A stretch of DNA of 64,000 bases. It comes from Pycnococcus provasolii. Taxonomy: Eukaryota > Chlorophyta > Pseudoscourfieldiophyceae > Pseudoscourfieldiales > Pycnococcaceae. The notes under the pieces are model-generated. The model was not told the DNA's origin and ran no database searches. It was given only the letters and a program-made list of their open reading frames with translations. Below are positions 16,268-62,105 of the stretch, piece by piece. The translations under genes were made by a program, and so were the position numbers. The stretch spans positions 682,001 to 746,000 of the forward strand of contig OW568875.1 in NCBI GenBank assembly GCA_938743325.2. The letters are read 5' to 3'. Numbering within the stretch: position 1 is the stretch's first letter; every line of letters begins with the position of its first letter.

Positions 16268-16310
16268 CCCTAACCCTAACCCTAACCACTCTCCCCTATA
16301 TACCCTAACC
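16268..16310 (-). promoter_or_regulatory. Telomere-like repeats and TATA element upstream of the PC-esterase gene
   Basis: Three perfect CCCTAA units (16268-16285) plus a separate CCCTAACC (16303-16310) flank a TATATA element near 16296-16301. Read in the direction of the gene they are GGTTAGGG, TATATA, then TTAGGG x3, ending 54 nt before the ATG. This is not a chromosome end, since genes continue on both sides. Confidence 0.8.
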
Positions 16311-31121: not shown

Positions 31122-31436
31122 ATGACGCACGGCCGCGGCGGAAACCCGTGGAGGGGAGCGCGGTACCTCGCGTGGGCCGCGAACGAAGAAGATGACAGTG
31201 ACCTGGAACGCGACGACAACGAACGGACGCAGGATATGGTGCTGGAGGTGGAACGACGAAACTTGCACCTTCAACGTGCGCGTACACGTCGTGCAGGAAG
31301 CTTCCTAGCACAGCCGTTCTACGTGCAAAACATCGAGGATGACGATGCCCCTTCGTTCAGGAGGTTCGTTCGAGGTGCCGACTCATGTGCTTGCATCAAC
31401 CCAATATCTGCTCGCGGGGGACCTCGCACGACGTGA
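31122..31436 (+). CDS. Small hypothetical ORF upstream of dispersed repeat copy A
   Basis: A 104-aa ORF with an ATG start. It is not recognised. It has an acidic helix (ANEEDDSDLERDDNERTQD), a basic stretch (RNLHLQRARTRRAG) and FYVQNIEDDDAPSFRRFV. It may be the last or only exon of a small gene, or a remnant. Its stop is followed after 58 bp by the dispersed repeat, the same arrangement as in three clear genes, which mildly supports it being a real 3' end. Confidence 0.4.
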   Translation: MTHGRGGNPWRGARYLAWAANEEDDSDLERDDNERTQDMVLEVERRNLHLQRARTRRAGSFLAQPFYVQNIEDDDAPSFRRFVRGADSCACINPISARGGPRTT

Positions 31437-31494: not shown

Positions 31495-31601
31495 ATCCCT
31501 CATTCAGTAATGAAGTTGCACTTTAGTTTGTCCAAAGGCCGTCCATTCACACCATTTCCCTTTCACCACTCAACTCATTCAACGGTGCCATTCACTGCGC
31601 C
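31495..31601 (+). repeat. Dispersed 3'-flank repeat, copy A (short)
   Basis: About 107 bp, starting ATCCCTCATTCAGTAATGAA and running through the CCATTCA-rich segment. It matches the stop-proximal end of copies B, C and D and then ends; the rest is missing. It lies 58 bp after the small ORF, in that ORF's orientation, and 45 bp from the convergent MYND gene. Confidence 0.85.
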
Positions 31602-31646: not shown

Positions 31647-33761
31647 TTAGTCGAGGTCATACAAACCTTGCTCTGAAGGTGGTGGCGACGGTGGCGCCGG
31701 TGGCGTGAGTGCCACAGACTCCTTCGTCTGTTCCTCCGTCGGCGTTGGCGTCGGCAAAGATGGTGCCGGCGCACTCGCGACCCCTGTAGCATCTTCCGCC
31801 TCCTTCTCCTCTTTTTTTTCCCCACACTCCTTCGCGTGCCCGTCACGCCAGTGCGTGCGCTGACAGTGCTGACTGCAGTAGAAGGTTGCACGGCATCGCG
31901 CGCAGCGCTTGAATGGAAGCGGACTCACCGCCTCGCGCACCAAGCACGTCGGATTGCTGCACTTACGGCCCAAGTTTTGCAACTCGCCAACATCAGGATT
32001 GCGCGCAACGCCAGGTGCATCCATCGCCGCGACGCCGCGACGGCTTGCCTCCTCCTCCGGGGTTTCTTCTGCACGCTTCGCGCCAGAGAGTCCCTTCGCA
32101 AAGTCGAATTTGCTTGACTTGCCTTCCGACGATGAAGGCGACGATGCGGCAATCGCGGACATGTCCACATCTCGCGACAGCTCGCTTAGAGGAGCACGAG
32201 AAATTTCCTCGTACGCCATGGGCTTCGTAGACGCACGTCCGCGGTTCGCGGCATCCTCTGCGGACCCTGCGATGAAAAATCTGTCGTACTGCGCCACCGC
32301 CGCATCGTCGTCGTACTCAGCCGCGGACGCGCCGTCGCCCTCTGCATTCTCCGGCGACGGCGCAATCACGAGAAGCTCGACGTCTCCAGCCTCTGTCCCG
32401 GCGACGGCGAAGCGGCCATGCTCACGTGGCGAAAAAAGGCTCGTTACGGCGTGATTCAGCGTGACAGAGTGCACGACTGTGCCATCAGCACGCAGAGCCT
32501 TCACCGAGCCGTTTGCACAGCCGGCGAAAACGCGCACCGGCGCACTGGCATCGTCAATCACGCGAAGGGAACCCACCGCGCCACGGAACGCCACCTTCCA
32601 CCGTTGCCAGGAGGATGCTTTCCCGGAACTCGAGGTTGACGACGTAGTTGCCGCGGCGGCTGCCAAGCCGGCGGCAGCCGCATCCGATGCCGTCTCCGAC
32701 TTCTCCAACGCGGCGTCGGGGTTGTGAAATCCGTACAGAGATCCTTGCGCGTCGCCAAAGACGAGCACGTCCACAGATCCGTCAAATGCGCATGGATCGC
32801 ACTCCATGCCCTTGCCGCCGTCCACGAGTGGCACGCCACCTCCGTTCCCTCCCACGACGTCCAGGAGTTGCACCGCACACTGACCACCTCCCCAGTGCGC
32901 GGCAACAAGCGCATTCGCACCAACAAGCCTTGCGTACCTGAGCGGCAGCTTGGTGACTGAACTGTGATTCCAGCATCCGAGTATCTTGCCGTCAGCAAGG
33001 CTCCACGTCACGAACGTGGTCTTGCTCGGAGAGTGCGCGACGACGACCGTGCCACTTACCGCGACGTGGCGCACGGGAGTGGCGTCGACCCAAAGAGGCT
33101 GCATGAGCCGTTCGTATGCAGACGCTTCGACTTGATCGCCGCTGGCTTCACCGAGCGACTCTTTGTCCACCCGCCTCCAGACGTGCACGTGGCCAGATCC
33201 CGTGGCAACAGCCACCTCGCGCGCGGTGAAATCGAGCGCGGTGATCGTGGTTGACGCCTCGGCGATTGCCGCCTTACCGCCCGTCTGCCTGAGCTCCGCG
33301 AGGATCCCGGCGTCGTGCAGCAGTTCGTTCCTCCACACCTGCTGAAACCCTCTCCCTGGCTCGCTCGCGTCATGTCGGAAGACAGTCAGGCACCCGCGCG
33401 GGTGCGCGTCCGCCGCCGCGAACCACCCACCCTCCGCGGCGGCGACGAACGGGTGCCTGCTGCGCGGCGTATCTTCCTCGCCCTCGCGCGCGTAGTCGAG
33501 CGCCGGGCGGAGCAAGTTCACCTCGCCGCCGTGCGCGGCCGCCTCCTCCTTGCCAGCGATCTCGATCGCCTCGTCGGTGGGCACCCACCCGCGCAGTCGC
33601 GGCGCGAGTCCGGCAACGGCGACCGCGGGTGGAAAGACGTCCGAGCACGTGGCTGCTGAGACGGCCGCCTCGAGCGCGTGGAATCGCAGCGGCGACGCGA
33701 GCACGCGTAGCATACTACTCGCGTTGTGCGTGCTGTGTTCGTTCGCCGTGGTGTTCGCCAT
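31647..33761 (-). CDS. Beta-propeller-like protein with C-terminal MYND zinc finger
   Basis: This 704-aa protein has an ATG start at 33761. Residues about 90-480 carry WD40-like blades: VAVATGSGHVHVWRRVD, VLVFGDAQGSLYGFHNPD, VFAGCANGSVKALRADGTVV and FAVAGTEAGDVELLVIA. The blades lack most canonical WD ends, so the propeller is divergent. Residues about 600-642 are a zf-MYND domain with the full Cys/His series: CSNPTC, CARC, FYCSQHCQ, HWRDGHAKEC. MYND fingers bind proline-rich partners in transcription and chromatin control. The tail is Pro/Thr/Glu-rich. I infer a nuclear or cytosolic adaptor; the precise role is unknown. It is divergent from the thioesterase gene with 177 bp between starts. 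Confidence 0.75.
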   Translation of the reverse strand: MANTTANEHSTHNASSMLRVLASPLRFHALEAAVSAATCSDVFPPAVAVAGLAPRLRGWVPTDEAIEIAGKEEAAAHGGEVNLLRPALDYAREGEEDTPRSRHPFVAAAEGGWFAAADAHPRGCLTVFRHDASEPGRGFQQVWRNELLHDAGILAELRQTGGKAAIAEASTTITALDFTAREVAVATGSGHVHVWRRVDKESLGEASGDQVEASAYERLMQPLWVDATPVRHVAVSGTVVVAHSPSKTTFVTWSLADGKILGCWNHSSVTKLPLRYARLVGANALVAAHWGGGQCAVQLLDVVGGNGGGVPLVDGGKGMECDPCAFDGSVDVLVFGDAQGSLYGFHNPDAALEKSETASDAAAAGLAAAAATTSSTSSSGKASSWQRWKVAFRGAVGSLRVIDDASAPVRVFAGCANGSVKALRADGTVVHSVTLNHAVTSLFSPREHGRFAVAGTEAGDVELLVIAPSPENAEGDGASAAEYDDDAAVAQYDRFFIAGSAEDAANRGRASTKPMAYEEISRAPLSELSRDVDMSAIAASSPSSSEGKSSKFDFAKGLSGAKRAEETPEEEASRRGVAAMDAPGVARNPDVGELQNLGRKCSNPTCLVREAVSPLPFKRCARCRATFYCSQHCQRTHWRDGHAKECGEKKEEKEAEDATGVASAPAPSLPTPTPTEEQTKESVALTPPAPPSPPPSEQGLYDLD

Positions 33762-39688: not shown

Positions 39689-39965
39689 CGATAACAGGTC
39701 CCAGTCCGGATAGGGAACGGCTGACGAAGCCCCTCGGACCCAGGCAATCCCCTTCCTCCCATGGGCCGCGAACTCGGTGCGTCCCGTGACGTCATGTTCC
39801 CTGTGCGCGCCCTGCCCGCCCCCCTGCAAGGCTGGATTTTCGAGGTACATAATGGCGAAGTTTTACTTTCCCCCTCGTTACGCGCTTTAGGTCCCCCTTT
39901 TTAGGCTGCGCTTTTTCTCCCCGGCCCCGGCGACTGGCTTGCACAACCACGCAAAACGCCCTGCC

Positions 39966-40637: not shown

Positions 40638-40885
40638 GCGAGCATTCTCTCACAATCATCCGCTGCAGCGCAGCACGCGCAGCACGTCGTCGCGTGCACG
40701 CATACGCGCACGCGTCAGTGGCGCCACCGCACTATTTCTCGACGACACGTCGTACGATGCGACCGCTCCTCTAGCAGGCAGGTGCGGGACTCTTGGAAAG
40801 CGAGGCGGAGACGGACGTTTTCCACGCGCGTGTCATCAGTGATTGGAGTGAAGACGCTGACGAGGACTTTTTTGAAAATAACTCG

Positions 40886-41267
40886 TAGGAGTTTGTGTGT
40901 ACATTGTTTGTAAATACATGATTGCAGTCTCAACTCCAAGACAGCTCCTTTTCCCACACGTTGGACTCCTTTAGATACTACTCTAGCCGCAGGTAGAGTA
41001 GTAAGTGTGACCCTTGAGTCATCGTGTTGATGCACGGTTGGTGGCGCTGGCGACGACATCAACGAAAACAAGTCACAACCGGAGACCTCACTGAGCCAAC
41101 GAAAGCGCCCTGATAGAGTGATACAACCTTCGAAATCACCTGCGCAATGTACAAAAACGCGAAGTGAATGGCACCGGTGAATGTGCTGAATGGTGAAAGT
41201 GAATGGTGTGAATGGACAACCGCTGGATAGAGCAAAGTACACTTCGTTACTGAATGAGGGATCTCAG
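40886..41267 (-). repeat. Dispersed 3'-flank repeat, copy C (full length)
   Basis: About 380 bp. In the direction of panC it begins CTGAGATCCCTCATTCAG six bases after the TAG stop and ends near AACTCCTA. It aligns over its full length with copy D, by eye well above 80 percent identical, with one 15-bp difference near 40980-41000. It contains five or so CCATTCA-type units and a TCATT-CAGT-AATGA hairpin at the stop-proximal end. Confidence 0.9.
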
Positions 41268-41272
41268 GTTCA

Positions 41273-42430
41273 CTACAATGCCACGTTGTCAAGCAACCTC
41301 ACACCGCCGTACACCACCGCCGCGCACATTCTCGCGCCTTCAGGAAGAGCGCGAGTCCAGCCGTCGGGCAATTCTATGTCCGCACTACAGCCCTTCACGC
41401 TACCAATCGGCTGCAGCGTCTCGCGGTCCACGGCGGTGACATAGTCCACCTCACCGCCAGCCTCCGAACACGCTTTCGCAATACGTGCCTCCAAGCAGGA
41501 AGCAACCTCCCACGTCGGTGGCGGTGGCGGCGCGTCTGCAGGCAATGTCAGCGCGCGATCCGCCTCAGCGGCGGCGGAGACGCTCAACATGGAAACTGGA
41601 AGGCTGCTTGACGCCGCAAGTCTCGCATCTTCGGAGAGGCCTCGGTTGCGGCTGCTCAGAGCGAGCAGGTCGTCGTCGCGCACGAGAGGTGCGGACTCGA
41701 CGCGCACGGGAACGTCGAGGTGCCTTGCCATAGCGCGCACGATGCACAGCTGCTGGAAGTCCTTCTCGCCGAACACCGCGACATCCGCCGAGGTGACGTT
41801 GAATAGCTTGAGAACTACCGTGCACACACCGCCGAAGAAGTGCGGCCGACTCTCCGCGCAAAGGCCCGCGGCAAGCGAGCCGCAGGGAACTACGTGCGTC
41901 TTAAGTGTGCTTGGCATCGCCGAGTCAGCTTCTCTCTCAGCCGCCAGCCTTGCACTTGGTTGGACGTTGTCGTCATCTTCCTCCTCGTCCGCGTACATGT
42001 CCTGTGGTGCAAATACGGCGAGGTGCTCCGTCGCTTTCGTCTCTGCGATGAGCCTGACGTCGTCGTCTAGGTTCCGCGGGTATGTGTCAAAGTCCTCGTG
42101 CGGTGCAAACTGTGCAGGATTGACGTAGACGCTGACGACGATTGCGTCCCCTTCGTTCGCGCACACGCTTGCTGCGTGGTCGATGAGCGAGAGGTGTCCG
42201 GCGTGCAGCCCGCCCATGGTGGGTACGAGTATGACGCGCGCACCCCGCGCGTGCTGCTCCGCCGCCCACTTCCTCATGTCTTTTTTGGTGCGAAGCATGG
42301 TTGGCGTTGCAACCGCGGCGGCTGCTACCCGCTGCCGCTGCCTTGTGCCAACACGCGCAGGCGCTCGTTTGCGGTTGAGTGCGAGCGCGTTCGTCGCGTT
42401 CGCTGCGCGAGTCGGCGCCCCCGTCGTCAT
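41273..42430 (-). CDS. panC: Pantothenate synthetase (pantoate-beta-alanine ligase)
   Basis: This 385-aa enzyme joins pantoate and beta-alanine with ATP to make pantothenate, the precursor of CoA. Motifs are complete: VPTMGGLHAGHLSLI (the HIGH-like nucleotide site, about 69-83), VNPAQFAPHEDFDTYPR, HFFGGVCTVVLKLFNVT, VFGEKDFQQL and ALSSRNRGLS. The C-terminal domain (VDYVTAVDRETLQP) is also present. An Ala/Arg-rich N terminus of about 44 residues (NRKRAPARVGTRQRQRVAAA) could be an organelle presequence. An acidic insertion (YADEEEDDDNVQ) is unusual for the family. It is divergent from the cysteinyl-tRNA synthetase gene with 216 bp between starts. The stop is followed directly by dispersed repeat copy C. 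Confidence 0.93.
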   Translation of the reverse strand: MTTGAPTRAANATNALALNRKRAPARVGTRQRQRVAAAAVATPTMLRTKKDMRKWAAEQHARGARVILVPTMGGLHAGHLSLIDHAASVCANEGDAIVVSVYVNPAQFAPHEDFDTYPRNLDDDVRLIAETKATEHLAVFAPQDMYADEEEDDDNVQPSARLAAEREADSAMPSTLKTHVVPCGSLAAGLCAESRPHFFGGVCTVVLKLFNVTSADVAVFGEKDFQQLCIVRAMARHLDVPVRVESAPLVRDDDLLALSSRNRGLSEDARLAASSSLPVSMLSVSAAAEADRALTLPADAPPPPPTWEVASCLEARIAKACSEAGGEVDYVTAVDRETLQPIGSVKGCSADIELPDGWTRALPEGARMCAAVVYGGVRLLDNVAL

Positions 42431-48537: not shown

Positions 48538-48971
48538 TCCTCGCTTGCGAAGCAACTTACCAAACAACGTGCTGTGATATATAAGATCGCAGAGGGCAGC
48601 GGAGGTGAGGTGGTGGGATTCCTGGACCCTGCCCCGATGGCGAGCAAGGCCGGCGCACAGTGATTGCGTGCGGGTGGCCTTGGCTCTGGCATCTGGCGTG
48701 TGCTACGATAGAGAGATTGGTTTTGACCACTTCGAGCATGGGGGTGGAAGTCGAGCTATGCAACAACAACTGGGCGTCGTGGTCTCCGGCACCATGGTTT
48801 AGGTGGTCAGGTGTCAGGTCCTCCCTGCTAGGCGCCCTATCCCCTAGTTTTAGATTTGGATTTGGAGCGCGCCCTCCGAACTCCGACGCGGCGAACGAAC
48901 TCCCTCGGCGCTCGAAACGCTCTCCCTTTTTCAATCCAAACAGCACACGTGGCGCCAGCGTACAGTACACC
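48538..48971. other. Divergent promoter, GT77-like / RCC1 genes
   Basis: No separate gene seen. The RCC1 frame is open upstream to an ATG at 48738, so the 5' end of that coding region could lie here; that extension has no RCC1 repeats. A TATA-like GATATATAAG occurs near 48578-48587, about 40 nt upstream of the GT77-like ATG. Confidence 0.5.
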
Positions 48972-50402
48972 ATGCCGCCCGCGTGCTCGTCCAGCGTGCT
49001 CGTGCTCTGGGGACTCAACGAAGCAGGGCAGTGCGGATGCGAAGATTTCGCGGAGAACGTACTGCGCGTGCCCACGCCAGTGCAACTACCCGCTGACGCA
49101 GCACAGCCTCTTTTGGTGAGCTGCGGGGAGGAGCACACCGCGTGCGTCGACTCGGCGGGGGCACTGTACACGTGGGGGAAGAACGACTCTGGTCAGCTGG
49201 GCAACGGGCGAGACGACGACACGAATCCGTGCCGTAAGCCGAGACGCGTCAAGGCTGGACTCCCGCCACGGGGAAAGGTGACGGCGCTGAGCTGCGGCGC
49301 TCGCAGCACCGCGGTGATTGTCGAAGAGGCGGCGAGTGACGACGGCGTGACAACTACGACCATTTATTCGTTTGGACGGTACCAGTACAGCAACCAACCT
49401 CACGCACTTAACCCGTTGAACCACCCGTTCGCGAATGCAATAATTACGCACATCTCTTGCGGCTGCGACCACGGCGCTGCCATTGACGACGCTGGACGAG
49501 TACTGACGTGGGGGTACAACGAGAGAGGTCAGTTGGGAAGAGGCTCAGCTTCTGAGGGGAAACAGCCTCCTGCGTTAATTGAACTGTGGGACTGGGACGG
49601 CGCCGCGGACTTTGCGCCTGGTGCCAGACCATTCGCGACACACATTGCGTGTGGATATCACCACACACTAATCGCGGCGAAAAACGAGACATTCACGTGC
49701 GGCTATGGAGAACACGGCCAACTTGGTCACTTGACACGAAAGGGGACAGCACTTCCCAGCGAAGACGGAGGCGAAGGGCCTTCAAGCAACGCTCGAAGAA
49801 GCGCCGTCGTACCGCACTACTTCGAAAGTACGGCTCGCCGTGTGAGCGTAATTTCTGGAGTGGAAATTGCGCAAGTAAACGCTGGGCAGGGCATTTCTGC
49901 CGCGCACACGTCATCTGGTTCACTCTATGTGTGGGGCGACGGTCGATGCGGCAGCCTTGGCTTAGGTGACCAAAGCTCTAGAAAAACTCCCGTGCTCATG
50001 CTTCGGAGTGGAGCGGTGCTGACGGCCCAAGGGCCTTGTCATTCACTTACAGTTGCGTCCGACGGATGTGCGTATGGGTGGGGATACTCGGCGTACGCGC
50101 AGGCGTGTGGATCTGGAAGACTCCACAACGGAAGCCGTGGATTCCGCTTCGCACCCACTGGAGTGCTCGGCCTCGCGGGCGGCGAAGTGATGTGCCTTGC
50201 TGCCGGAGGAGGGCACAGCGCGGCAATCTTGCGCACGGATGCGCTGCTTCTTGCAGCCGAAGCGGCACTCGCCAAGCAGCTCCGTTGCCATCTTTTGTCG
50301 TATACTCCATCCGATGGGCGTGACATGGCGCTGCGTGTTGCAAATGCGCGCGGTGTTCCGCTACGCATCTCACGGCTCGCCGAGGCGCTCGTCAAGGCCT
50401 AA
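48972..50402 (+). CDS. RCC1-repeat beta-propeller protein
   Basis: This 476-aa protein starts at ATG 48972, where the RCC1 fold begins; an in-frame ATG at 48738 would add 78 residues without repeats. Six or seven RCC1 repeats are visible by their W/F/C-G-xN-xxGQLG pattern: LVLWGLNEAGQCG, LYTWGKNDSGQLGNG, YSFGRYQYSNQ, VLTWGYNERGQLGRG, TFTCGYGEHGQLG, LYVWGDGRCGSLGLG and AYGWGYSAYAQACG, each with a following strand such as SCGEEHTACVD or ACGYHHTLIA. RCC1-like propellers act as Ran exchange factors, in UV-B sensing (UVR8) or as scaffolds; the Trp pattern alone cannot tell. The last 60 residues are helical. Repeat copy B begins 6 bp after the stop. Confidence 0.85.
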   Translation: MPPACSSSVLVLWGLNEAGQCGCEDFAENVLRVPTPVQLPADAAQPLLVSCGEEHTACVDSAGALYTWGKNDSGQLGNGRDDDTNPCRKPRRVKAGLPPRGKVTALSCGARSTAVIVEEAASDDGVTTTTIYSFGRYQYSNQPHALNPLNHPFANAIITHISCGCDHGAAIDDAGRVLTWGYNERGQLGRGSASEGKQPPALIELWDWDGAADFAPGARPFATHIACGYHHTLIAAKNETFTCGYGEHGQLGHLTRKGTALPSEDGGEGPSSNARRSAVVPHYFESTARRVSVISGVEIAQVNAGQGISAAHTSSGSLYVWGDGRCGSLGLGDQSSRKTPVLMLRSGAVLTAQGPCHSLTVASDGCAYGWGYSAYAQACGSGRLHNGSRGFRFAPTGVLGLAGGEVMCLAAGGGHSAAILRTDALLLAAEAALAKQLRCHLLSYTPSDGRDMALRVANARGVPLRISRLAEALVKA

Positions 50403-50408
50403 AATCTT

Positions 50409-50672
50409 AGATCCCTCATTCAGTAATGAAGTGCACTTAAGTTTGTCCAACGGTCGTCCATTCACACCATTTTCTTTCACCATTCAGCCCATTCACCGGT
50501 GCGATTCAGCAGCGCGTTTTTGTACATGGCGCATGTGATTTCGAAGGCTGTATCACTCTATCAGGGCGCTTTCGTTGGCGCAGTGAGGGCTCCACTCGCG
50601 TTTCATGTCGCTGTTGTCGTCGACATCGCCACCAACCGTGCATCGACACGATGGCTCAAGGGTCACATCTAT
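50409..50672 (+). repeat. Dispersed 3'-flank repeat, copy B (about 260 bp)
   Basis: It starts AGATCCCTCATTCAGTAATG six bases after the RCC1 stop and follows the copy C/D sequence to about GGCTCAAGGGTCACA, then diverges. The last third of the full element is missing. It lies in the convergent gap to the repeat surface protein gene, in RCC1 orientation. Confidence 0.88.
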
Positions 50673-50865: not shown

Positions 50866-50870
50866 TTACA
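50866..50870 (-). terminator. TGTAA signal overlapping the stop codon of the surface-protein gene
   Basis: The coding end reads GTG GTG TAA on the minus strand. Confidence 0.5.
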
Positions 50871-52707
50871 CCACCACGTGGAGGAGGACGCCAGTCGTCG
50901 CCGCCGCAACGAACATAGTGGAAGCAGCACACGTGCCACCCGAGGTCTCCGGCGACACCTTGGTCGTCTTCGCAGCCTTGGCCGGCGGTGCCGCGGTCGT
51001 CGTCGCAGCCTTGGCTGGCGGTGCCGCGGTCGTCTTCGCAGCCTTGGCTGGCGGTGCCGCGGTCGTCTTCGGGGGCGGACACTTTCCGCCAGGGCACATC
51101 ATCGACGGCGGCGCAGAGCCGAATTTGATTTTTATGTCCTTGAACGCCGGCCTCTTGGCAAAGGCGGCACCGAAGCTGCCGTCGTCACGCGCAGCCGCAA
51201 GCTTCTCGAACACGTCGTAGCTCAAGGTCTCGTTCACCTTAATGCGGAAGGAGACATTGAAGGATGCCGCCGTCGAAAGCAAGCGGCGGCCGGCGGCGGC
51301 GCCGCCGCTGCTGCCACCTCCCGCCGCCGGCTCGGTGCCCGCACCTCCCGCCGCCGGCTCGGTGCCCGCACCTCCCGCCGCCGGCTCGGTGCCCGCACCT
51401 CCCGCCGCCGGCTCGGTGCCCGCACCTCCCGCAGCCGGCTCGGTGCCCGCACCTCCCGCAGCCGGCTCGGTGCCCGCACCTCCCGCAGCCGGAGCCGTGG
51501 TGGTCGTGGTCGTTTCATTGCCACCTCCCGCCGCCGGCTCGGTGCCCGCACCTCCCGCAGCCGGAGCCGTGGTGGTCGTGGTCGTTTCATTGCCACCTCC
51601 CGCCGCCGGCTCGGTGCCCGCACCTCCCGCAGCCGGAGCCGTGGTGGTCGTGGTCGTTTCATTGCCACCTCCCGCCGCCGGCTCGGTGCCCGCACCTCCC
51701 GCAGCCGGAGCCGTGGTGGTCGTGGTCGTTTCATTGCCACCTCCCGCCGCCGGCTCGGTGCCCGTACCTCCCGCAGCCGGAGCCGTGGTGGTCGTGGTCG
51801 TATCAGTGCTCGCGGTCACGGTCACTTGCACGTTTTCAGCCGGAACATCCGCCACCTCCGCCACCGTTTCCTGCGTAGCCGCGGCAACTTCGGTAGCGTC
51901 AGCCTCGGTTTCTACCGTGAATTCGTCAGACACATACACCATGCCCTCCTCCGTTGGCGCATCCGGAGCCGTGGTGGTCGTTTCATTGCCACCTCCCGCC
52001 GCCGGCTCGGTGCCCGCACCTCCCGCAGCCGGAGCCGTGGTGGTCGTTTCATTGCCACCTCCCGCCGCCGGCTCGGTGCCCGCACCTCCCGCAGCCGGAG
52101 CCGTGGTGGTCGTGGTCGTTTCATTGCCACCTCCCGCCGCCGGCTCGGTGCCCGCACCTCCCGCAGCCGGAGCCGTGGTGGTCGTGGTCGTTTCATTGCC
52201 ACCTCCCGCCGCCGGCTCGGTGCCCGCACCTCCCGCAGCCGGAGCCGTGGTGGTCGTGGTCGTTTCATTGCCACCTCCCGCCGCCGGCTCGGTGCCCGTA
52301 CCTCCCGCAGCCGGAGCCGTGGTGGTCGTGGTCGTTTCATTGCCACCTCCCGCCGCCGGCTCGGTGCCCGCACCTCCCGCAGCCGGAGCCGTGGTGGTCG
52401 TGGTCGTTTCAGTATCAGCCGCAATGGCAGCGGTGTCCGTTCCACCTGCGGCCCCTGATGAGTTAGTTGCACCAGGTTCTGAGGGATTTGCACCAGGTTG
52501 TGTTGGAGTTGCACCAGGTTCTGAGGGAGTTGCACCAGGTTCTGAGGGAGTTGCAACACCAGGTCCTGATGACGAAGGGGAGCCGCCCTGCGCAAATACC
52601 CCCGACGAAGCGCTTAAGAGTATGCCAACAAGAACGAGCATGGCCGTTGGGAAGGCAACGCGGCCTAGGGCCATCCGCCCAAACCTCTTAGCTCCACGAG
52701 ACATCAT
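50866..52707 (-). CDS. Thr/Ala/Gly-repeat surface protein, possibly GPI-anchored
   Basis: This 613-aa protein has a signal peptide (AFPTAMLVLVGILLSASSGV, ending FAQGG). A PSEPGAT-type repeat follows, then about six 22-24-residue units of the form NETTTTTTAPAAGGAGTEPA-AGGG, then a unique segment (FTVETEADATEVAAATQETV ... VPAENVQVTVTAS), then about five more units and six short GAGTEPAAG units, then a second unique segment (GRRLLSTAASFNVSFRIKVN ... FKDIKIKFG). The two unique segments look like the two halves of one small beta-alpha domain found in algal surface proteins, split by an expanded repeat. Next come three PPAKAAKTTAA repeats and a hydrophobic C terminus (STMFVAAATTGVLLHVVV) fitting a GPI signal or membrane end. 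Function unknown; likely cell wall or surface. The stop overlaps TGTAA. Confidence 0.75.
   Translation of the reverse strand: MMSRGAKRFGRMALGRVAFPTAMLVLVGILLSASSGVFAQGGSPSSSGPGVATPSEPGATPSEPGATPTQPGANPSEPGATNSSGAAGGTDTAAIAADTETTTTTTAPAAGGAGTEPAAGGGNETTTTTTAPAAGGTGTEPAAGGGNETTTTTTAPAAGGAGTEPAAGGGNETTTTTTAPAAGGAGTEPAAGGGNETTTTTTAPAAGGAGTEPAAGGGNETTTTAPAAGGAGTEPAAGGGNETTTTAPDAPTEEGMVYVSDEFTVETEADATEVAAATQETVAEVADVPAENVQVTVTASTDTTTTTTAPAAGGTGTEPAAGGGNETTTTTTAPAAGGAGTEPAAGGGNETTTTTTAPAAGGAGTEPAAGGGNETTTTTTAPAAGGAGTEPAAGGGNETTTTTTAPAAGGAGTEPAAGGAGTEPAAGGAGTEPAAGGAGTEPAAGGAGTEPAAGGAGTEPAAGGGSSGGAAAGRRLLSTAASFNVSFRIKVNETLSYDVFEKLAAARDDGSFGAAFAKRPAFKDIKIKFGSAPPSMMCPGGKCPPPKTTAAPPAKAAKTTAAPPAKAATTTAAPPAKAAKTTKVSPETSGGTCAASTMFVAAATTGVLLHVVV
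51310..52430 (-). repeat. In-frame 66/72-bp coding tandem repeats
   Basis: Two arrays of nearly identical 66- or 72-bp units, one on each side of the unique segment at about 51800-51970, plus a run of 27-bp units (51315-51490). Units are almost identical to each other, so the arrays are recently homogenised. Because of the repeat, the other strand and other frames are also open for over 500 codons. Confidence 0.95.
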
Positions 52708-53543
52708 GACGGGCAGAACGTGCAGCCCTGACGTCGCGGAACTTGGAGGGGGAGGGGGCGAGGGCGAGGCAGAACGCGAACACGCCCACGCCGTTGACTG
52801 GGGAGGTTGAGCGGGAAAGGGACCTCTGGGGCGGCGAAGGGTCCAGGGCGCGTCGCCGGATCGGGGGGCGGGCACATTCCTTGGCCGTCGCGTGTTCGCG
52901 TTCGAGCAACGGGATGGTGCCGGATTGGGAACGAGACGTCAAACGAGATTCACGAGATCGCGTGATGCATGCAGTTGGCCCTGATATTAGACTACCAACC
53001 TATGTTTCCGGACGTATTGTAGCAAACGAACGGGGAGGGGAGTTCCCCGACCTAGGAAAGCGATCATCGATGGGGGAACGCCTTGTTGATCGCTTGATCG
53101 CGACGAGGCCGAGGAGTTGAAAGTTGAAAGTTCAAGTTCGGTCGATGGGCAGATGGGAGGGTATGTAAGTTCGCAACGGCGAATCCCCACCCAGATTTCC
53201 GACCTACAGCTGACCTACAGCAATTCTCTATCCGTCTTGGGGATCCGCCGGGCTTCAGGCTTGGTGTTAGTGTGTTACATTTACGACCAAATGGGTGGTA
53301 ATTCGCACAGCGCGCCGTTGTAACTTTTGGTTATGCGATTTTCCACACAGCACCGTTGTTAAGGCCCGTTGTTCAGGAGCTCCAGGGAGGTGGTGAACAA
53401 CGGCCAGTTGTAAGTTGTTCGCCACCAAGGCCACCATCACAATTCACAAACGCCATCGCGCCCATCATCGGCAGCCTCGCTGCGCCGACCTTAACTCTTA
53501 AGCTCATTGGCCCCGCCTCGTTGCGCCGCACTTAACACGCTGA
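52708..53543. other. Spacer upstream of the surface-protein gene
   Basis: No supported gene. Short open frames on the plus strand (for example 52743-53120) have no domain. An 8-bp inverted repeat GTTGTTCA / TGAACAAC occurs at 53368-53375 and 53394-53401. The right end abuts repeat copy D. Confidence 0.5.
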
Positions 53544-53919
53544 TAGGAGTTTGTGTGTACAATGTTTTGTAAATACATGATCGCAGTCTCAACTCCAAGA
53601 CAGTCCCCTTTCTTTCCCACATGTTGAACTCCTTTAGCTACTGTAGAGTAATAAGTGTGACCCTTGAGTCATCGTGTTGATGCACGGTTGGTGGCGCTGG
53701 CAACGACATCAACGAAAACAAGTCGCAACCGGAGACCTCCCTACGCCAACGAAAGCGCCCTGATCGAGCAATACACAACCTTCAAAATCACCTCAGCCAT
53801 GTACAAAAACGCGCAGTGAATGGCAACGGTGAATGGGCTGAATGGTGAAAGCGAATGGTGTGAATGGACGACCGTTGGACAAATGAAGTGCAACTTCATT
53901 ACTGAATGAGGGATCTCAG
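53544..53919 (-). repeat. Dispersed 3'-flank repeat, copy D (full length), overlapping a stop codon
   Basis: About 376 bp. In the direction of the RSPH10B-like gene it starts CTGAGATCCCTCATTC; the TGA in that start is the stop codon of the gene. It runs to AACTCCTA at the far end, as in copy C. CCATTCA-type units lie in the first 100 bp. Confidence 0.9.
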
Positions 53920-56525
53920 CTTAATTCCTCTTGCTCATTGTCCTCAGCCACGACGAGACTCTCCGCTCGCACCTCGAGCTCGTTCAAGTAGAACTGCAGC
54001 TGGATGTCAAGCGGTGCTTCCTCACGACCAACGATGCCCTTCGCGGTATGCCGCGCGATGCGGCAAAGCGCTTCGACAAATTCTGCGTAAGTCATCTCCG
54101 AATGCGTAAGCGAAACCACATCTGGGATTGCATTCGCAGCCACCCGCGCGTTCGCGGTCTTTTCGACAGCCGTGCGTGCCTCGGCAGCCGCTCGCTTCGC
54201 CAACTCCTCCTCGTCCAGCTCCTCCTCCTCCTCCGGCGCCGCTTCCTTCGTCGATCGAGGTGTTTGAGGCTTACTGCGCGGCGTCTTCCCACCTTCACTC
54301 TTTGCTGCCGCCTCTGCCTCTTCAGCCGCAGCTTTGGCTGCCGCCTCAGCCTTTGCCGCCGCTACGGCGGCAGCCTTTGCATCCTCGATCATCTGGATCG
54401 ACGCCGCAATTTCCTCGGCGGAGGGCTTAGACATGAGCGCTGCCGCCGCGCTCTTCAGTGCTGTGAACGAAGTAACGGCGTACTCATCCTCGTCTTCATC
54501 CTCCACCTCCACCTTCAGCAACTTGCACTCACTCAGCACCTCAATCATGTGATTCACGGTCGTCAGCTGCCACTTCGCGCCGGTTCCCGTTTCCTTCGTC
54601 TTATTCTTCCTCACAGCCACGTCAAACAGCTTAAGAAGAAGCTCTTGAAATTCTACTAGGCACTGCACTTCCATCATCTCAGCGCGAAACGTGTCGTCTG
54701 GCATCTTCGACGCCTTCGGGAGTATGTCATTCTGCAGAAGCATCATCAGGCGCTCGTGCAGCGATTGGCACTGCTCGTGGTACCTCGCCTGAGCCAGACG
54801 CACAATAACCTCGAGAAAGTCGCGGTAGAGTAGGTCGTGATCAGGGTTCTGCGGGTCCAGCATTCGCCTGTCTTTGATTGTCAGGCCACCTAGTATTTTC
54901 TCATCTTCAATCAACGACGCGGCCGCTGCCTCTGGCGAATCGGCCGTCATCAACTCGTTTTCGTCGCTCAGCGAAGACGACGAATCCGATGGAGACTCGC
55001 TCGAACCGACAACATCTTCGCTGCCTTCGCTTCCACCGGCCGCGCCTTCCGCCACATCATCCTGCGCCACAGATTGTCTTGTCACCGGCCTTGAGTAGAC
55101 CCTACTCACCTCTTTGTCAAGAATTTCCCAAGACAGTTCGGCCGCTGGGAGTTCAGCAAAGCTGCCGGTGTTGGGGACATGTTCCGGTCTTACTGGATGC
55201 AGCTTCCAAAGCGGTGCACTCGTGCAAGTGCGCTCGATGTGCGCAGCTATGCGGTTGGCGCGCGCGAGAGTCAGCGATGGATTCAGCATCTCGCAGTCAT
55301 GCAGCATTCGCCGAAATTGCTTTCCGGAGATGGCGAACGTCTTCCCGCGTCGGATTCCCTCCACGGTTCGATCGTTCGACCTCCCGCCGCCTGGAATCCA
55401 GACGCAGGGGAGGAACGAGTAGTGTCTGTAGACGACACGCAGGTCGCTCATGTAGCGCATCAGCACGGCGCTCGTGCGACGGAGCTGCTCGTGTGGATTG
55501 CGCTCTTCCGCGACGATGTCTTCGATGTCCATGATTTCGTGGCTCGTCTCCGTCTCCTCAACGGCATGGTTGTCCGCAAATCGCCCGGTGTACTTCGTGC
55601 CATCCTCGTACGTGAAGGTACCAGCACCGTGCTTGACGCCCATTTCCCAGTTCCCTTCGTACCGCGAACCGGTGGCGTAGTGGAAGATGCCAAATTTGTG
55701 CCTGAATCCATTTCGAAACGAACCTTCGTAACGATTCTTCATCTGGTGCTGCTCGCTTTCTCCGATGAGTTCCCACGTCTGCTCGCCAACGCCGTTCGGC
55801 TTGCCGTGCTCCCACTCGCCCTCGTACGTCTCCACGCCGAGTTCTGTCATCCACGTCATAACACCGTACCCGCACTTCTGGTCAGCTTTCCAGCAGCCGG
55901 TGTACACAGAACCGCTTCGGTAGTGCATCGTGCCCTCGCCGCACTTCTGGTCGTTCTCCCACGCACCCTCGTAGCGCTCCTTACCGTTCGGCCCGTCGAA
56001 CGTGATGACGCCGTAACCGTGCCGCTTTCCGTTGACCCACTCGCCAACGTACCTGGCGTCGTTGTCCTCGAAGTACATGGTTCCCTTGCCGTGGCGCAGG
56101 CCGTCGCGGACGTCGCCTTCGTAGATCCCTCCCGTTGGCCAACGGTACGTCCCCTTTCCCTGCGCCTTTCCTTGCACAAAGTCGCCCTTGTACTCGACGC
56201 CGTCCACCCACGTGTACGTTCCGCGGCCGTGCATGCGGCCACCCACCCACGTTCCGGTGTAAGTGTGGCCATACCTGAAATTTGCCGTTCCGTGCCCGTG
56301 CGGCAGCGTTGTATTCTGATACATGTTCCCCTCGTAGTTGGACACGACGACCTCGAGCACGCCTGGCTCGAAGTAGTCGTGAGGCACGCGCGAGTACTTG
56401 GTGCTCGTCTGCGTTTTGACGACGTGTTGTTCGTCCTCCTCCGGCGCCGGTGGCTCAGCCGCTGCGGCCGCTGCGTCTGCCGTCTCCTCCGGAATCGGAG
56501 GAGTCTGCTCGAGTGCGTCGGCCAT
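53916..56525 (-). CDS. Radial spoke head protein 10 homolog (RSPH10B-like, MORN repeats)
   Basis: This 869-aa protein has nearly the length of human RSPH10B (870 aa). The start is the first ATG (56525); the upstream frame is low complexity with only GTG. Residues about 75-330 hold ten or so MORN repeats (YTGTWVGGRMHGRGTYTW, YVGEWVNGKRHGYGVITF, YEGNWEMGVKHGAGTFTYED). The middle region (DLRVVYRHYSFLPCVW, FRRMLHDCEMLNPSLTLARA) matches the RSPH10B-specific part in which IQ/EF-like helices occur, and FLEVIVRLAQARYHEQCQSL and YAEFVEALCRIARHT fit the paired helical repeats. An acidic/Ala-rich low-complexity insertion lies near 690-800. Radial spoke heads control dynein in 9+2 flagella, so this organism should form a motile flagellum at some stage. 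The stop codon lies inside repeat copy D. Confidence 0.82.
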   Translation of the reverse strand: MADALEQTPPIPEETADAAAAAAEPPAPEEDEQHVVKTQTSTKYSRVPHDYFEPGVLEVVVSNYEGNMYQNTTLPHGHGTANFRYGHTYTGTWVGGRMHGRGTYTWVDGVEYKGDFVQGKAQGKGTYRWPTGGIYEGDVRDGLRHGKGTMYFEDNDARYVGEWVNGKRHGYGVITFDGPNGKERYEGAWENDQKCGEGTMHYRSGSVYTGCWKADQKCGYGVMTWMTELGVETYEGEWEHGKPNGVGEQTWELIGESEQHQMKNRYEGSFRNGFRHKFGIFHYATGSRYEGNWEMGVKHGAGTFTYEDGTKYTGRFADNHAVEETETSHEIMDIEDIVAEERNPHEQLRRTSAVLMRYMSDLRVVYRHYSFLPCVWIPGGGRSNDRTVEGIRRGKTFAISGKQFRRMLHDCEMLNPSLTLARANRIAAHIERTCTSAPLWKLHPVRPEHVPNTGSFAELPAAELSWEILDKEVSRVYSRPVTRQSVAQDDVAEGAAGGSEGSEDVVGSSESPSDSSSSLSDENELMTADSPEAAAASLIEDEKILGGLTIKDRRMLDPQNPDHDLLYRDFLEVIVRLAQARYHEQCQSLHERLMMLLQNDILPKASKMPDDTFRAEMMEVQCLVEFQELLLKLFDVAVRKNKTKETGTGAKWQLTTVNHMIEVLSECKLLKVEVEDEDEDEYAVTSFTALKSAAAALMSKPSAEEIAASIQMIEDAKAAAVAAAKAEAAAKAAAEEAEAAAKSEGGKTPRSKPQTPRSTKEAAPEEEEELDEEELAKRAAAEARTAVEKTANARVAANAIPDVVSLTHSEMTYAEFVEALCRIARHTAKGIVGREEAPLDIQLQFYLNELEVRAESLVVAEDNEQEELS

Positions 56526-56986
56526 GGCTGCGAGCAAGCGGGCAGGTTGGTTTGAGAGAGAGGAGAGGAGGGGAAGGGGAGAGGAGAGGAGGAGGAGGGG
56601 AAGGGTCGGCCGTCCTGGTCCTCTCCACCCTCCCCTTCCCTTGAGTAGTCTCTTGAAAGGGTCCCCCACTCCCCCGTGCCAGGTATTGGGCGCATCCTCG
56701 TTGGCAGCCTTCCCTTCCCTTCCTCGCCAAACCGCCTGAGACCTTGTCCGCCCCTCCCCCTTTTCTCTCCGTCTATGGCATCAGATGGATGCCGCGGTCC
56801 ACGAGAGACGACGACGCCGAGTTTCACTGCAAGACCGCACCGTTGGATGTGGGAACACCTACAAAAAGGCGACTGTTAGGGTACATAAGAAGTTAGGGTA
56901 AGGCCTAAGGTTAGGGTTAGGGTTAGGGTTAGGGTTAGTAGGGGCCACGAAATAGGGGCCACGAGTTGCCATCACGGCATTCAAAC
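56526..56986. other. Divergent promoter, RSPH10B-like / AFG1 genes
   Basis: No gene seen. It has purine/pyrimidine-skewed stretches near 56560-56640 and the TTAGGG array on the AFG1 side. Confidence 0.5.
56893..56938 (+). promoter_or_regulatory. Telomere-like TTAGGG array upstream of the AFG1 gene
   Basis: One TTAGGG at 56893-56898, then four perfect tandem TTAGGG units (56911-56934) plus TTAG. They read TTAGGG on the sense strand and end 52 nt before the ATG at 56987. Confidence 0.85.
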
Positions 56987-58592: not shown

Positions 58593-58597
58593 TTACA
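58593..58597 (-). terminator. TGTAA signal overlapping the stop codon of GT29 gene 1
   Basis: The coding end reads TCA ATG TAA on the minus strand. Confidence 0.5.
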
Positions 58598-60008
58598 TTG
58601 AACAGATAGCACCACGGCCTGAGGCATGCAGCATACGCCACGCAATCGACTCTCCCGACCAGTCGTGCCACTCCTGACCACTCATTGTTTTCTGCGCGCG
58701 TCCTTTGTACTGGTCAGGCCCACGCTTGCTTTGAGGGAACGTCGTAAAGCCGTACAAGCTTACGCTCTCACACATGTTGACCATGGCTAGAATTGCGTGA
58801 CCGCCACTCGTTAGCTGTCTCCAGCTGCCGAATGGTCCCAGACCAAACTTGCGCGCATTATTTCTCATTGACTTCATCGTGCGAACCTGTGAAGAAATCA
58901 TGCGCCGCGACAAGAACGTGAGCTTATTTCCTGGATATTTTGATCGACACTTGCTGCGCATTTCCGCGCGGTTTGCGGGAAACCACATGATCATTGCAAT
59001 GCCTTTCGAGTCCGACGCGGGAAGTTTCCCCTCGCAGCATGCGCTCACGGACCGGCTGTTGTTGAGCACGCGTGCGGACGTCTTCGAGCCAACGTTTGCG
59101 CGATACTCAGGACCAATTGGAGCGGTGTTAAACCTCAGCACGACGTCGTGGTTGTCGATATACTTGCCGTACTTCTTTTTGACCAGGTGTCCAGCGTTGC
59201 CCACGAGCGCGCATGATCGTAGTGGTGGTGCACCACCGCCACGCCCACGAAGCTTCGTCGGCGGACTCTTAGTTGCCGTCGTTGCCGTAGCGGGAGCGCC
59301 GACGAGTCCGTGGGGCGTCCATTCGCCGCCACCACCGCTGCTGTCGTCTTCAGACTCCTCTCCTCCACGAACGTCGCTTTCTTCACCGGTGCGCCTCTCC
59401 GTCGGCCTCATGCGTGGGAACATTCCAACCACGCGAGGGATAGTCGAGAGGTCTCTCAGCCACGGCAGTGCGCTCGCCGTCTCGTAGGCAGCCGTGTTGC
59501 AGAACTTTATGTCGCGTAGGCACTTGTCCAGCGCCTTATCACCAGGCGTGTTCACAGCCTTGGTTCCAAACCGGCTTCCGCCCACTCCATCGTTCTCGTG
59601 CTGTACCTTCATCCTCTTTCTCAGGCCGCATCCGACGCGCTTCCACGTCCAACGCAGCAGCTTGCGTCCAGACGAGCTCCGTTCCGCCTGCAGCGACGTG
59701 GTGTTTCCCGTGCAGTCGTCGATGTCGTTGTCACCGGTCGCAAGCAGCGCCCTTCTCCGCGCGAGCGTCACTCTCGCTCCTTGCACGTACCCCAAGTCGT
59801 AAGGCGATCCTTGGATCTTGAACGGCAGCATGTTCTTCGGCGCGCCTCCGCATATGGGAACCTCGCGCGGCCGCGGCTCGTGCTGCTGTGCGAGTGCCTG
59901 CTGACATTGGCATACGTGCAGAAAGGCGACGCAGAGCAGAGTCGCGTGGAGCGTCACCGCACGCAGCCCGTGTTCTCTTGCTCGGCAGCCATCGGCGTGC
60001 GCCGGCAT
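58593..60008 (-). CDS. GT29 sialyltransferase-like glycosyltransferase 1
   Basis: This 471-aa type II protein uses ATG 60008, directly before the signal anchor (AVTLHATLLCVAFLHVCQ, about 20-37); a longer in-frame ATG at 60176 would overlap the divergent neighbour's start. The sialyl motifs are all present: motif L (SCALVGNAGHLVKKKYGKYI to VVLRFNTAP and VGSKTSARVLN, about 266-318), motif S (LTSGGHAILAMVNMCESVSL-YGF, about 400-422), and the His-x4-Glu of motif VS (HDWSGE, about 445-450). GT29 enzymes transfer CMP-activated nonulosonic or Kdo-type acids; in plants GT29 members act on pectin or pollen-tube glycans. Substrate here is unknown. It is head to head with a second GT29 gene. The stop lies in ATGTAA (TGTAA). 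Confidence 0.87.
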   Translation of the reverse strand: MPAHADGCRAREHGLRAVTLHATLLCVAFLHVCQCQQALAQQHEPRPREVPICGGAPKNMLPFKIQGSPYDLGYVQGARVTLARRRALLATGDNDIDDCTGNTTSLQAERSSSGRKLLRWTWKRVGCGLRKRMKVQHENDGVGGSRFGTKAVNTPGDKALDKCLRDIKFCNTAAYETASALPWLRDLSTIPRVVGMFPRMRPTERRTGEESDVRGGEESEDDSSGGGGEWTPHGLVGAPATATTATKSPPTKLRGRGGGAPPLRSCALVGNAGHLVKKKYGKYIDNHDVVLRFNTAPIGPEYRANVGSKTSARVLNNSRSVSACCEGKLPASDSKGIAMIMWFPANRAEMRSKCRSKYPGNKLTFLSRRMISSQVRTMKSMRNNARKFGLGPFGSWRQLTSGGHAILAMVNMCESVSLYGFTTFPQSKRGPDQYKGRAQKTMSGQEWHDWSGESIAWRMLHASGRGAICSM

Positions 60009-60170
60009 CGGGCGGGGAGAATCGAGCAGGGATCGAGGGGCAAGCTCAAGCCCGTGACGGAGTGTCTTGCACCAAGAGGGTCCCCACCCCCACGGCCAGG
60101 TCCCACGGCCCATCGCCTTGCCGCGCCCCTCCAGACGCCCCTCCTCCCTCCCTCCTCGTGCAAGACTCTC
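60009..60170. promoter_or_regulatory. Shared divergent promoter of the two GT29 genes
   Basis: Only 162 bp separate the two start codons. The segment is C/G-rich without a clear TATA element. If the longer ATG of gene 1 (60176) is used instead, the two coding regions overlap by 6 bp head to head. Confidence 0.6.
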
Positions 60171-62105
60171 ATGCATGTGCGCGCCACCGCCGCCACGACG
60201 GGTGCCTCAAGCGTGCGGCCTCTGCGCAAGCCGCCCAGGTACAGGCGCAGCGCCGCGAACACGCACAGACTCGTGCTCATAGCCTTGCTAGCGCTTGCCG
60301 CCTTGGGACTGCTGGCGCTGCGACCCACGCCGCGTATCGACGTGGATGATAGCGCAGACGAGGTGGATGCAGCGCAGACGCAGCACGCCGACCACCCGGG
60401 ACTAGAAAACGTCGCCAAGGCGCCTGCATACAACTCTCGCGTTGAGCTGACGCCGCGCATAAAGGAGCAGGTGCAGGAGAAGGAAGAGCAGGAGCAGGAG
60501 CAGGAGCAGGACGCAGCCGTCCCAAAGATGCATGAAACCTTGCCAGCGCAGGTGCACGCGCCTGTGAACACGAAGCGTGCGCCGAGATCTCAACCGCCGG
60601 TGGCTCGTACGGTTGACGAGTTTGGACTTTCGTGGAAGCCGAGCGCGCCGGGACGCAAGACAGTTCCTGTGGACGTGGAGGAGCTTATCGCCACCGCGCA
60701 GGGCATCGCCAACGACACGCGCTATCGTTACGATCCTGCGCGCATGATTCTCACAAAGACGAACCACCTCAAGCTGCGTCCAAGCGACCGCATACACGAC
60801 ATGAGGTGCCTCCCGGATACCAACCCGTTTGAACAGCCTTCGGCGCAGGTGGACGAGCTGCGCCGCAGGAGAAGGAGAGATGTGAAAGCTGAGTCAGAGG
60901 ATGTTGGCGACGGCGTTGTGGCGAAACCACTGCACAAGACCTGCGCGATTGTTGGCAACGCGGGTTCATCGCTCACCGTTCACTGGGGAAGTGCCATCGA
61001 CGCGGCAGAGGCGGTCATACGTATTAATCAAGGTCCCACCAAGGGCTACGAGCCTTTTGTCGGCAGCCGCACGACGTACAGGCTCATAAATAAGAAGTGG
61101 GCGGCGGTGTACACTGCCAAGGACGATGGACGCCAGATTTTGCTGCCCAGCGAGGCGCAGAATGCAACCTACGTGGTGACGCGTGGCTCGACGTGGCAAC
61201 TGGAGAGGCTCTTTCACGTCGTACGGCGTCTACGGCCCGACATTCGAGTGTACTTTCTTGCCAACGGCCCACTGGGGCGCGCGCGCTGGATGCTTCAGCG
61301 CTTTCGCGACGTCGCAAACAGCGCGGCGACGAAGCGCGGAAGCCCTCAGTACGAGGGTGGGGATTCGCCAAGCAGCGGTGCGATTGCGCTATACTTTGCA
61401 CTGCAGGTGTGTGAAAAGGTCAGCGTGTTTGGCCTAGGCCAGGCGGCGCCGGATACGCCCGCCAGGGTGGCGAAGCGGTTTGCGATGATGTGGCTTGATC
61501 TGCGACGTAAGTATTTGGCACAACACCCTGAGCAGTCGAAAAGTTGGGCGTCTGCGCCATCGAATGTGGGATTTTCCGTGGACTACAATCCAATCAGCTG
61601 CAGACCCGTTGCCGGTGGGCCACCTGTTAGCCGCCAAGGGCGTGGTCGCGCACCCGTTATTCCGGTGCATCCGCTGCCGTATCACTACTTTCTTCATTGG
61701 CCAGATTCCTACCAGCTACGAGCTCATCCACATCATGCGTTTGATCTCGAAAACGACTTTTTCCACGCGCTTTCCGAGGCATCGCAGCGAACGCACGGCG
61801 GCGGTGGTAGCGGCGGCATTGGTGGTGGCGATTACCGCTATCGCACGTGGGATATGTCGTTCTGCGAAACACCGCTGCCATGCAACGATGAAGCTCGCTG
61901 CAAGTCGCAGCTGAATCGCATGAGTCAGGGTGGAATGATGGGCAGTGGAGCTTCACAATATGGCGGCAACGCTGCGCTTTCGGTCATGCTTCAGCGAACC
62001 GCGAGCGAGCGCACGGGGCAGTACGGAGTGCAAAAAGGCCGAGGAAATGACGGCAAGTTTGTAGAAGCATCTCACTACGACAAGCGCCGTGAAGGTACGG
62101 GATGA
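60171..62105 (+). CDS. GT29 sialyltransferase-like glycosyltransferase 2
   Basis: This 644-aa protein starts at the first ATG compatible with a type II anchor (HRLVLIALLALAALGLLALR, about 32-51); the frame is open far upstream but without a better start. A Glu/Gln-rich stem (EQVQEKEEQEQEQEQD) follows. Motif L is KTCAIVGNAGSSLTVHWGSA with AVIRINQGPT and VGSRTTYRLIN (about 256-307); motif S is PSSGAIALYFALQVCEKVSV (about 400-423); the motif VS His-x4-Glu is HAFDLE (about 522-527). Catalytic features therefore look intact. The motif S/VS gap is long (about 100 residues) with an insertion including YHYFLHWPDSY. The Gly-rich C-terminal tail with CETPLPCNDEARC is not part of the family core. Two TGTAA pentamers follow the stop by 49-63 nt. 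Confidence 0.87.
   Translation: MHVRATAATTGASSVRPLRKPPRYRRSAANTHRLVLIALLALAALGLLALRPTPRIDVDDSADEVDAAQTQHADHPGLENVAKAPAYNSRVELTPRIKEQVQEKEEQEQEQEQDAAVPKMHETLPAQVHAPVNTKRAPRSQPPVARTVDEFGLSWKPSAPGRKTVPVDVEELIATAQGIANDTRYRYDPARMILTKTNHLKLRPSDRIHDMRCLPDTNPFEQPSAQVDELRRRRRRDVKAESEDVGDGVVAKPLHKTCAIVGNAGSSLTVHWGSAIDAAEAVIRINQGPTKGYEPFVGSRTTYRLINKKWAAVYTAKDDGRQILLPSEAQNATYVVTRGSTWQLERLFHVVRRLRPDIRVYFLANGPLGRARWMLQRFRDVANSAATKRGSPQYEGGDSPSSGAIALYFALQVCEKVSVFGLGQAAPDTPARVAKRFAMMWLDLRRKYLAQHPEQSKSWASAPSNVGFSVDYNPISCRPVAGGPPVSRQGRGRAPVIPVHPLPYHYFLHWPDSYQLRAHPHHAFDLENDFFHALSEASQRTHGGGGSGGIGGGDYRYRTWDMSFCETPLPCNDEARCKSQLNRMSQGGMMGSGASQYGGNAALSVMLQRTASERTGQYGVQKGRGNDGKFVEASHYDKRREGTG

Follow-up and report, generated by a model that had tools for sequence, protein, structure and literature searches.

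SINEs are non-autonomous, dispersed repeats that are often truncated at one end and comparable in size to the repeat described here. Unlike them, this repeat lacks a tail, any tRNA-like or Rfam-like part and a convincing target duplication, and its B boxes do not exceed chance; the missing polymerase III or tRNA-like head, for its part, does not count against headless SINEs. It may act like a 3'-UTR SINE, which we propose as a candidate likeness only.

Retroposons in 3' UTRs (PMC2689281) and landing at fixed places in gene-dense genomes (PMC5391098) are both known kinds already, as the relevant parts of two reports describe. According to the first, the SIDERs of Leishmania resemble the present repeat in being short, degenerate and dispersed, many of them within 3' UTRs (PMC2689281). 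Those in 3' UTRs lie in sense, and the stretch between poly(A) and trans-splice sites is enriched in antisense ones, whereas the repeat reported here, read as a retroposon, would be antisense and begin at the stop codon. The hosts also differ, since introns are short in the genome studied here and its genes occupy both strands. In the second, a non-LTR retrotransposon, TRE5-A of Dictyostelium, is described as sparing the genes of a gene-dense genome by means of a fixed landing place that lies ~47 bp upstream of tRNA genes (PMC5391098). Here, in contrast, the landing place would be the stop of a protein gene, and the window, that is, the whole 64-kb stretch of DNA analysed, contains no tRNA gene according to ARAGORN run with the bacterial code. 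Landing directly past stop codons would be new and, on present evidence, is a possibility; among the literature matches listed, we found no description of the element or of a stop-codon landing rule. Exact matches were absent from viral contigs (three patterns) and prokaryote genomes (two patterns), and BLASTN of copy D against plasmids gave no match. These collections are not algal nuclear genomes, so a lack of relatives there says little.

Copies of the repeat and the genes they adjoin

A first-pass annotation had placed four copies of one element in the window, on given strands, and a BLASTN search with copy D as the query confirmed them (A at 86%, B at 85.5% and C at 89.6%; Table 1). The search returned no further convincing copy in the 64 kb, three extra rows of 17-22 bases (E 0.9-3.2) being discarded as chance. 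The common start sequence was borne out as well: the 20-mer ATCCCTCATTCAGTAATGAA occurs four times in the window at three or fewer mismatches, as opposed to zero in 100 shuffles. So was the division into two long copies (378 and 372 bp) and two stop-proximal ones (258 and 106 bp). Copies A and D have both ends in common, from GATCCC through CTCCTA, and B and C retain only the stop-proximal end, the distal part being missing in both. A and D also share the CTGA preceding GATCCC, which in D supplies the TGA stop of the gene. A longer copy B was considered and rejected, given that the sequence beyond 50667 matches neither the A nor the D tail beyond shuffles (43 and 418 of 500 shuffles do as well under strict scoring, respectively, and 142 and 190 of 500 under loose scoring).

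Table 1. Positions of the repeat copies, their neighbouring genes and other features in the 64-kb window
Feature	Position	Strand	Description	Support
Copy C	31495..31600	+	Stop-proximal 106 bp only	BLASTN 89.6% to D; alignments
Copy A	40886..41263	-	Full length, 378 bp; GATCCC end faces PanC gene stop	
Copy B	50410..50667	+	258 bp from the stop-proximal end; resembles A and D up to 50667	
Copy D	53544..53915	-	Full length, 372 bp; starts right after MORN gene TGA	
ORF before copy C	31122..31436	+	104 aa, doubtful gene	No Pfam match to E 1; weak coding score
MYND finger gene near copy C	31647..33761	-	Supported gene	Pfam PF01753, E 1.1e-8
PanC gene	41273..42430	-	Pantoate-beta-alanine ligase; stop before copy A	Pfam PF02569, E 4.5e-73
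RCC1-repeat protein gene	48660..50402	+	Stop before copy B	Pfam PF00415, E 3.3e-45
MORN-repeat protein gene	53916..56669	-	Stop before copy D	Pfam PF02493, E 3.7e-49
ORF in copy A	40715-41242	-		No Pfam match to E 1
Frame at far end of copy A	~40775-40888	+	Unsupported frame	
TTAGGG arrays	16268-16287; 56911-56934		3 and 4 exact units	
ABC transporter gene	36896-39850	-	Two introns	Introns by eye
Protein gene between copies B and D	50866-52705	-	Internal repeats	
22-bp repeat	53474-53536		Directly past copy D far end	
GT29 sialyltransferase-like genes	58593-60176; 59598-62105	-; +	Head to head	

Gap-free identity ranged over the copy pairs from 83 to 90% (A-D 334/372, A-B 227/264, D-B 223/264, B-C 93/106, D-C 89/106 and A-C 88/106). 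This similar divergence across all pairs makes the copies look old and independent, none of them being a recent duplicate of another. Their G+C content is 46-51%, compared with 60% for the window. Mismatches between A and D number 15, 11 and 11 by codon phase, and none of the six copy pairs shows a preferred phase. One sense frame of copy A crosses the element without a stop codon, but an open frame is also present in 117 of 4,000 shuffles of its sequence. A coding origin was rejected on these two grounds, and the copies drift as non-coding DNA. Nor are they pieces of duplicated genes, as the hosts PanC, RCC1 and MORN are unrelated. The four copies are one short dispersed repeat.

On the same strand, the distance from the stop of a Pfam-supported gene to GATCCC is 0 bases for D, 7 for B and 9 for A. 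Copy C, whose end reads ATCCC, lies 58 bases downstream of the stop of the unsupported 104-aa ORF, and its truncated end is 46 bases from the opposite-strand stop of the MYND finger gene; if the ORF is discounted, both supported neighbours of C lie on the opposite strand to it. The annotated start at 0-58 bp past a same-strand stop thus holds for three copies and depends on a doubtful ORF for the fourth. The same can be said of the claim that every copy takes the orientation of its gene, which stands for A, B and D with supported genes. In convergent gaps, moreover, that claim is true by construction, because there is always a same-strand stop upstream of an insert, whichever way it lies, and orientation is there uninformative. 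Distance, rather than orientation, is the informative part of the placement. The assignment of three copies to convergent gaps did not survive: only B lies in one with supported neighbours, while A and C require ORFs that have no Pfam match and weak coding scores. At the far end of copy A, an unsupported plus-strand frame ends ...SDWSEDADEDFFENNS, its TAG being formed by the first three bases of that far end.

Ends of the repeat and its route of spread

No 3' tail, either poly(A) or simple repeat, was found at the four junctions, and a homopolymer stands beside the shared end only in C. None of the four copies (0/4) has a convincing target duplication. Flank similarity was equalled in 30 (D), 281 (C), 427 (B) and 999 (A) of 1,000 shuffles, and in 121, 877, 2,630 and 2,941 of 3,000 random spaced pairs, respectively, so that the ~30-base similarity between the two sides of copy D is a lead only. 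The A-tracts on each side of copy C are likewise within chance. Target duplications could be hidden by age. Terminal inverted repeats do not exceed chance either (42 of 500 shuffles as good for A and 500 of 500 for D), in agreement with the annotation, which had reported neither duplications nor terminal repeats.

Several types of element were rejected. A solo LTR, MITE or Helitron lacks suitable ends here, by the inverted-repeat test and by inspection; the Helitron-type end motif is CTRR, and inspection of the element ends showed none. The shared end resembles a branch point followed by AG, as an antisense intron might, but the element lacks a start like GTACGT or GTAAGT, which are those of two introns of ~75-80 bp read by eye in one gene.

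Tentatively, we favour the reading that the copies are remnants of one old, non-autonomous, retroposon-like repeat of ~375 bp that came to rest at the 3' ends of genes in antisense, 5'-truncated form. Its own sense strand would be the one antisense to the abutting gene, which would make the GATCCC end its 3' end and B and C 5'-truncated. Its RNA would be copied by an enzyme encoded elsewhere, with reverse transcription primed at a nick in the gene's sense strand just past the stop codon. The resulting insert would run antisense to the gene, from a 3' end at the stop to a variable 5' end distal to it. Priming on that strand would be the simplest account of the constant end, the distal loss, the antisense lie and the nearness to stops.

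The annotation had already suggested an antisense, 5'-truncated SINE/LINE-like element, and its polarity, lack of terminal repeats and nearness to stops are retained here, but the expected tail, duplication and pair of polymerase III boxes are missing. B boxes in the copies carry two to four mismatches, a quality that random pieces also reach. An exact A box occurs on five of the eight strands of the copies, with no B box after any, and in 138 of 1,000 random 380-mers. In A, C and D, it occupies one homologous antisense place, so close to the presumed 3' end as to be unusable as a promoter. Also counting against a retroposon are the truncation of only two of the four copies and the position of C, which does not follow a supported stop.

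A dispersed repeat spread at the DNA level, such as a decayed MITE-like or Helitron-like element or a spacer propagated by ectopic repair, would need no RNA intermediate, its truncations being later deletions. We consider this rather unlikely, albeit with points in its favour: A and D have exactly the same two ends, a target duplication is not evident, and later deletion accounts equally well for B and C. However, the terminal inverted repeats and CTRR end that such elements would bring did not emerge from the searches above, and both truncations are on the same side, though in few copies.

Placement past stop codons and the 3'-UTR alternative

For uniform insertion into non-coding DNA, the probability that three of four copies fall within 9 bases after a correct-strand stop is 9e-6 (supported genes) to 1.7e-5 (other gene sets), values that rest on n=4 copies and gene starts chosen by eye, and that are post hoc because the distance threshold was picked after the data had been seen. 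Subject to the same limits, confining insertion to 200, 100, 60 or 30 bp past stops gives P values of 5.2e-4, 1.5e-3, 3.7e-3 and 1.7e-2, respectively, for supported genes, and up to 3.0e-2 for other gene sets and strand-forced versions. Nearness to stops is therefore well above uniform insertion and modestly above insertion limited to gene 3' ends. Some of it is expected anyway, given that convergent gaps are short (35-178 bases in the eight that hold no copy).

Random insertion followed by survival, in which only the bases past stops tolerate inserts of 100-400 bp and nothing is targeted, can explain much of the placement of these four copies. The nine convergent gaps of the supported gene set hold just 949 bases in total before insertion, and the 30-bp zone yields P 0.017 (0.029 with strand forced). 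As the full explanation, it is nonetheless unlikely: tandem and divergent gaps offer 9.2 kb of non-coding DNA, the 60-200 bp zones give P from 5e-4 to 8e-3 across three gene sets, strand-forced versions included, and copy D is flush with its stop although its gap spanned 838 bp prior to insertion. The retroposon-like repeat favoured above could thus have preferred gene 3' ends or have survived only there.

A stronger version, in which a retroposon family targets the first bases past stops by priming on the gene's sense strand, is quite doubtful; four copies in one 64-kb window are too few to prove that an element aims at gene ends. If true, such a family would spread among densely packed genes and leave their reading frames intact, and host genes would gain a new 3' flank. 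A genome-wide peak just past stops would make the system a natural test of mobile DNA survival and 3'-UTR rewriting in compact genomes. On present evidence, this is an old repeat family whose placement is suggestive.

Signals acting in the RNA were sought on both strands. Rfam gave no match for the whole window or for copy D, and neither strand of copy D folds better than shuffles; an RNA gene or structured UTR was rejected on these results. A 7-pair hairpin beside the GATCCC end, kept in the fourth copy too according to the alignment, has 21 of 21 cells paired in antisense and 17 of 21 in sense (A, B and D, with one varying site), which counts towards the retroposon-like reading. A central hairpin leans the other way (66 of 69 cells paired in sense RNA versus 48 of 69 in antisense), but in none of three copies does its stability exceed that of shuffles. 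Two-sided changes at predicted pairs number 0, 1 and 3 in three alignments, with covariation terms of +0.38, +1.12 and -0.32 kcal/mol. Up to 160 nt past the stops preceding A, B and D, there is no TGTAA or AATAAA, motifs found within that distance at 5 and 2, respectively, of 27 stops. On the antisense strand of A and D, ~25 bases from the gene-distal end, lies TGTAAATA, a possible poly(A) signal for a convergent gene.

The annotation's other proposal, a mobile or copied 3'-UTR or terminator module retained for a role in the adjoining gene's mRNA, is improbable and the least supported reading: its sense orientation close to three stops, the five or six CATTCA-like motifs that each copy carries within its first 110 bases and the sense bias of the central hairpin speak for it, but the missing Rfam match and TGTAA or AATAAA signals, folds within the range of shuffles for hairpin and whole element alike, scant covariation and the loss of much of the element from two copies leave little positive evidence.

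Genomic setting

The window is eukaryotic, with dense genes on both strands and few introns. Its genes include a separate bacterial-type carbamoyl phosphate synthase large chain, a BNR sialidase-like protein, a GATA protein with a sub-threshold AP2 match and the sialyltransferase-like pair listed in Table 1, a set that in our judgement fits a small alga. As far as the cited portions of two reports go, Chloropicon has 59 sialyltransferase and nine sialidase genes with ~0.5 intron per gene (PMC6731263), a G+C content of 57.4-60.5% and repeats amounting to 5.5-9.1% (PMC12301720). Its telomere repeat is given, in part of a source, as (TT)TTTAGG, whereas the window has TTAGGG arrays. Besides Chloropicon, Pycnococcus (PMC8209157) was considered as a candidate host. 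The TTAGGG 12-mer has five matches in the window, compared with a mean of 0.03 over 100 shuffles. Both arrays lie in spacers beside gene starts, the second with degenerate neighbours.

Three further features were noted. The two introns of the ABC transporter gene, ~75-80 bp each as read by eye, contain the branch-like motifs CACTAAC and CACTAAA. The 22-bp repeat next to copy D is present as two copies, 86% alike and 41 bases apart. The gene between copies B and D encodes a protein rich in T, A, P and G, with an apparent signal sequence and a hydrophobic C-end (by eye), and contains many near-identical repeats of 72 bp and 27 bp.
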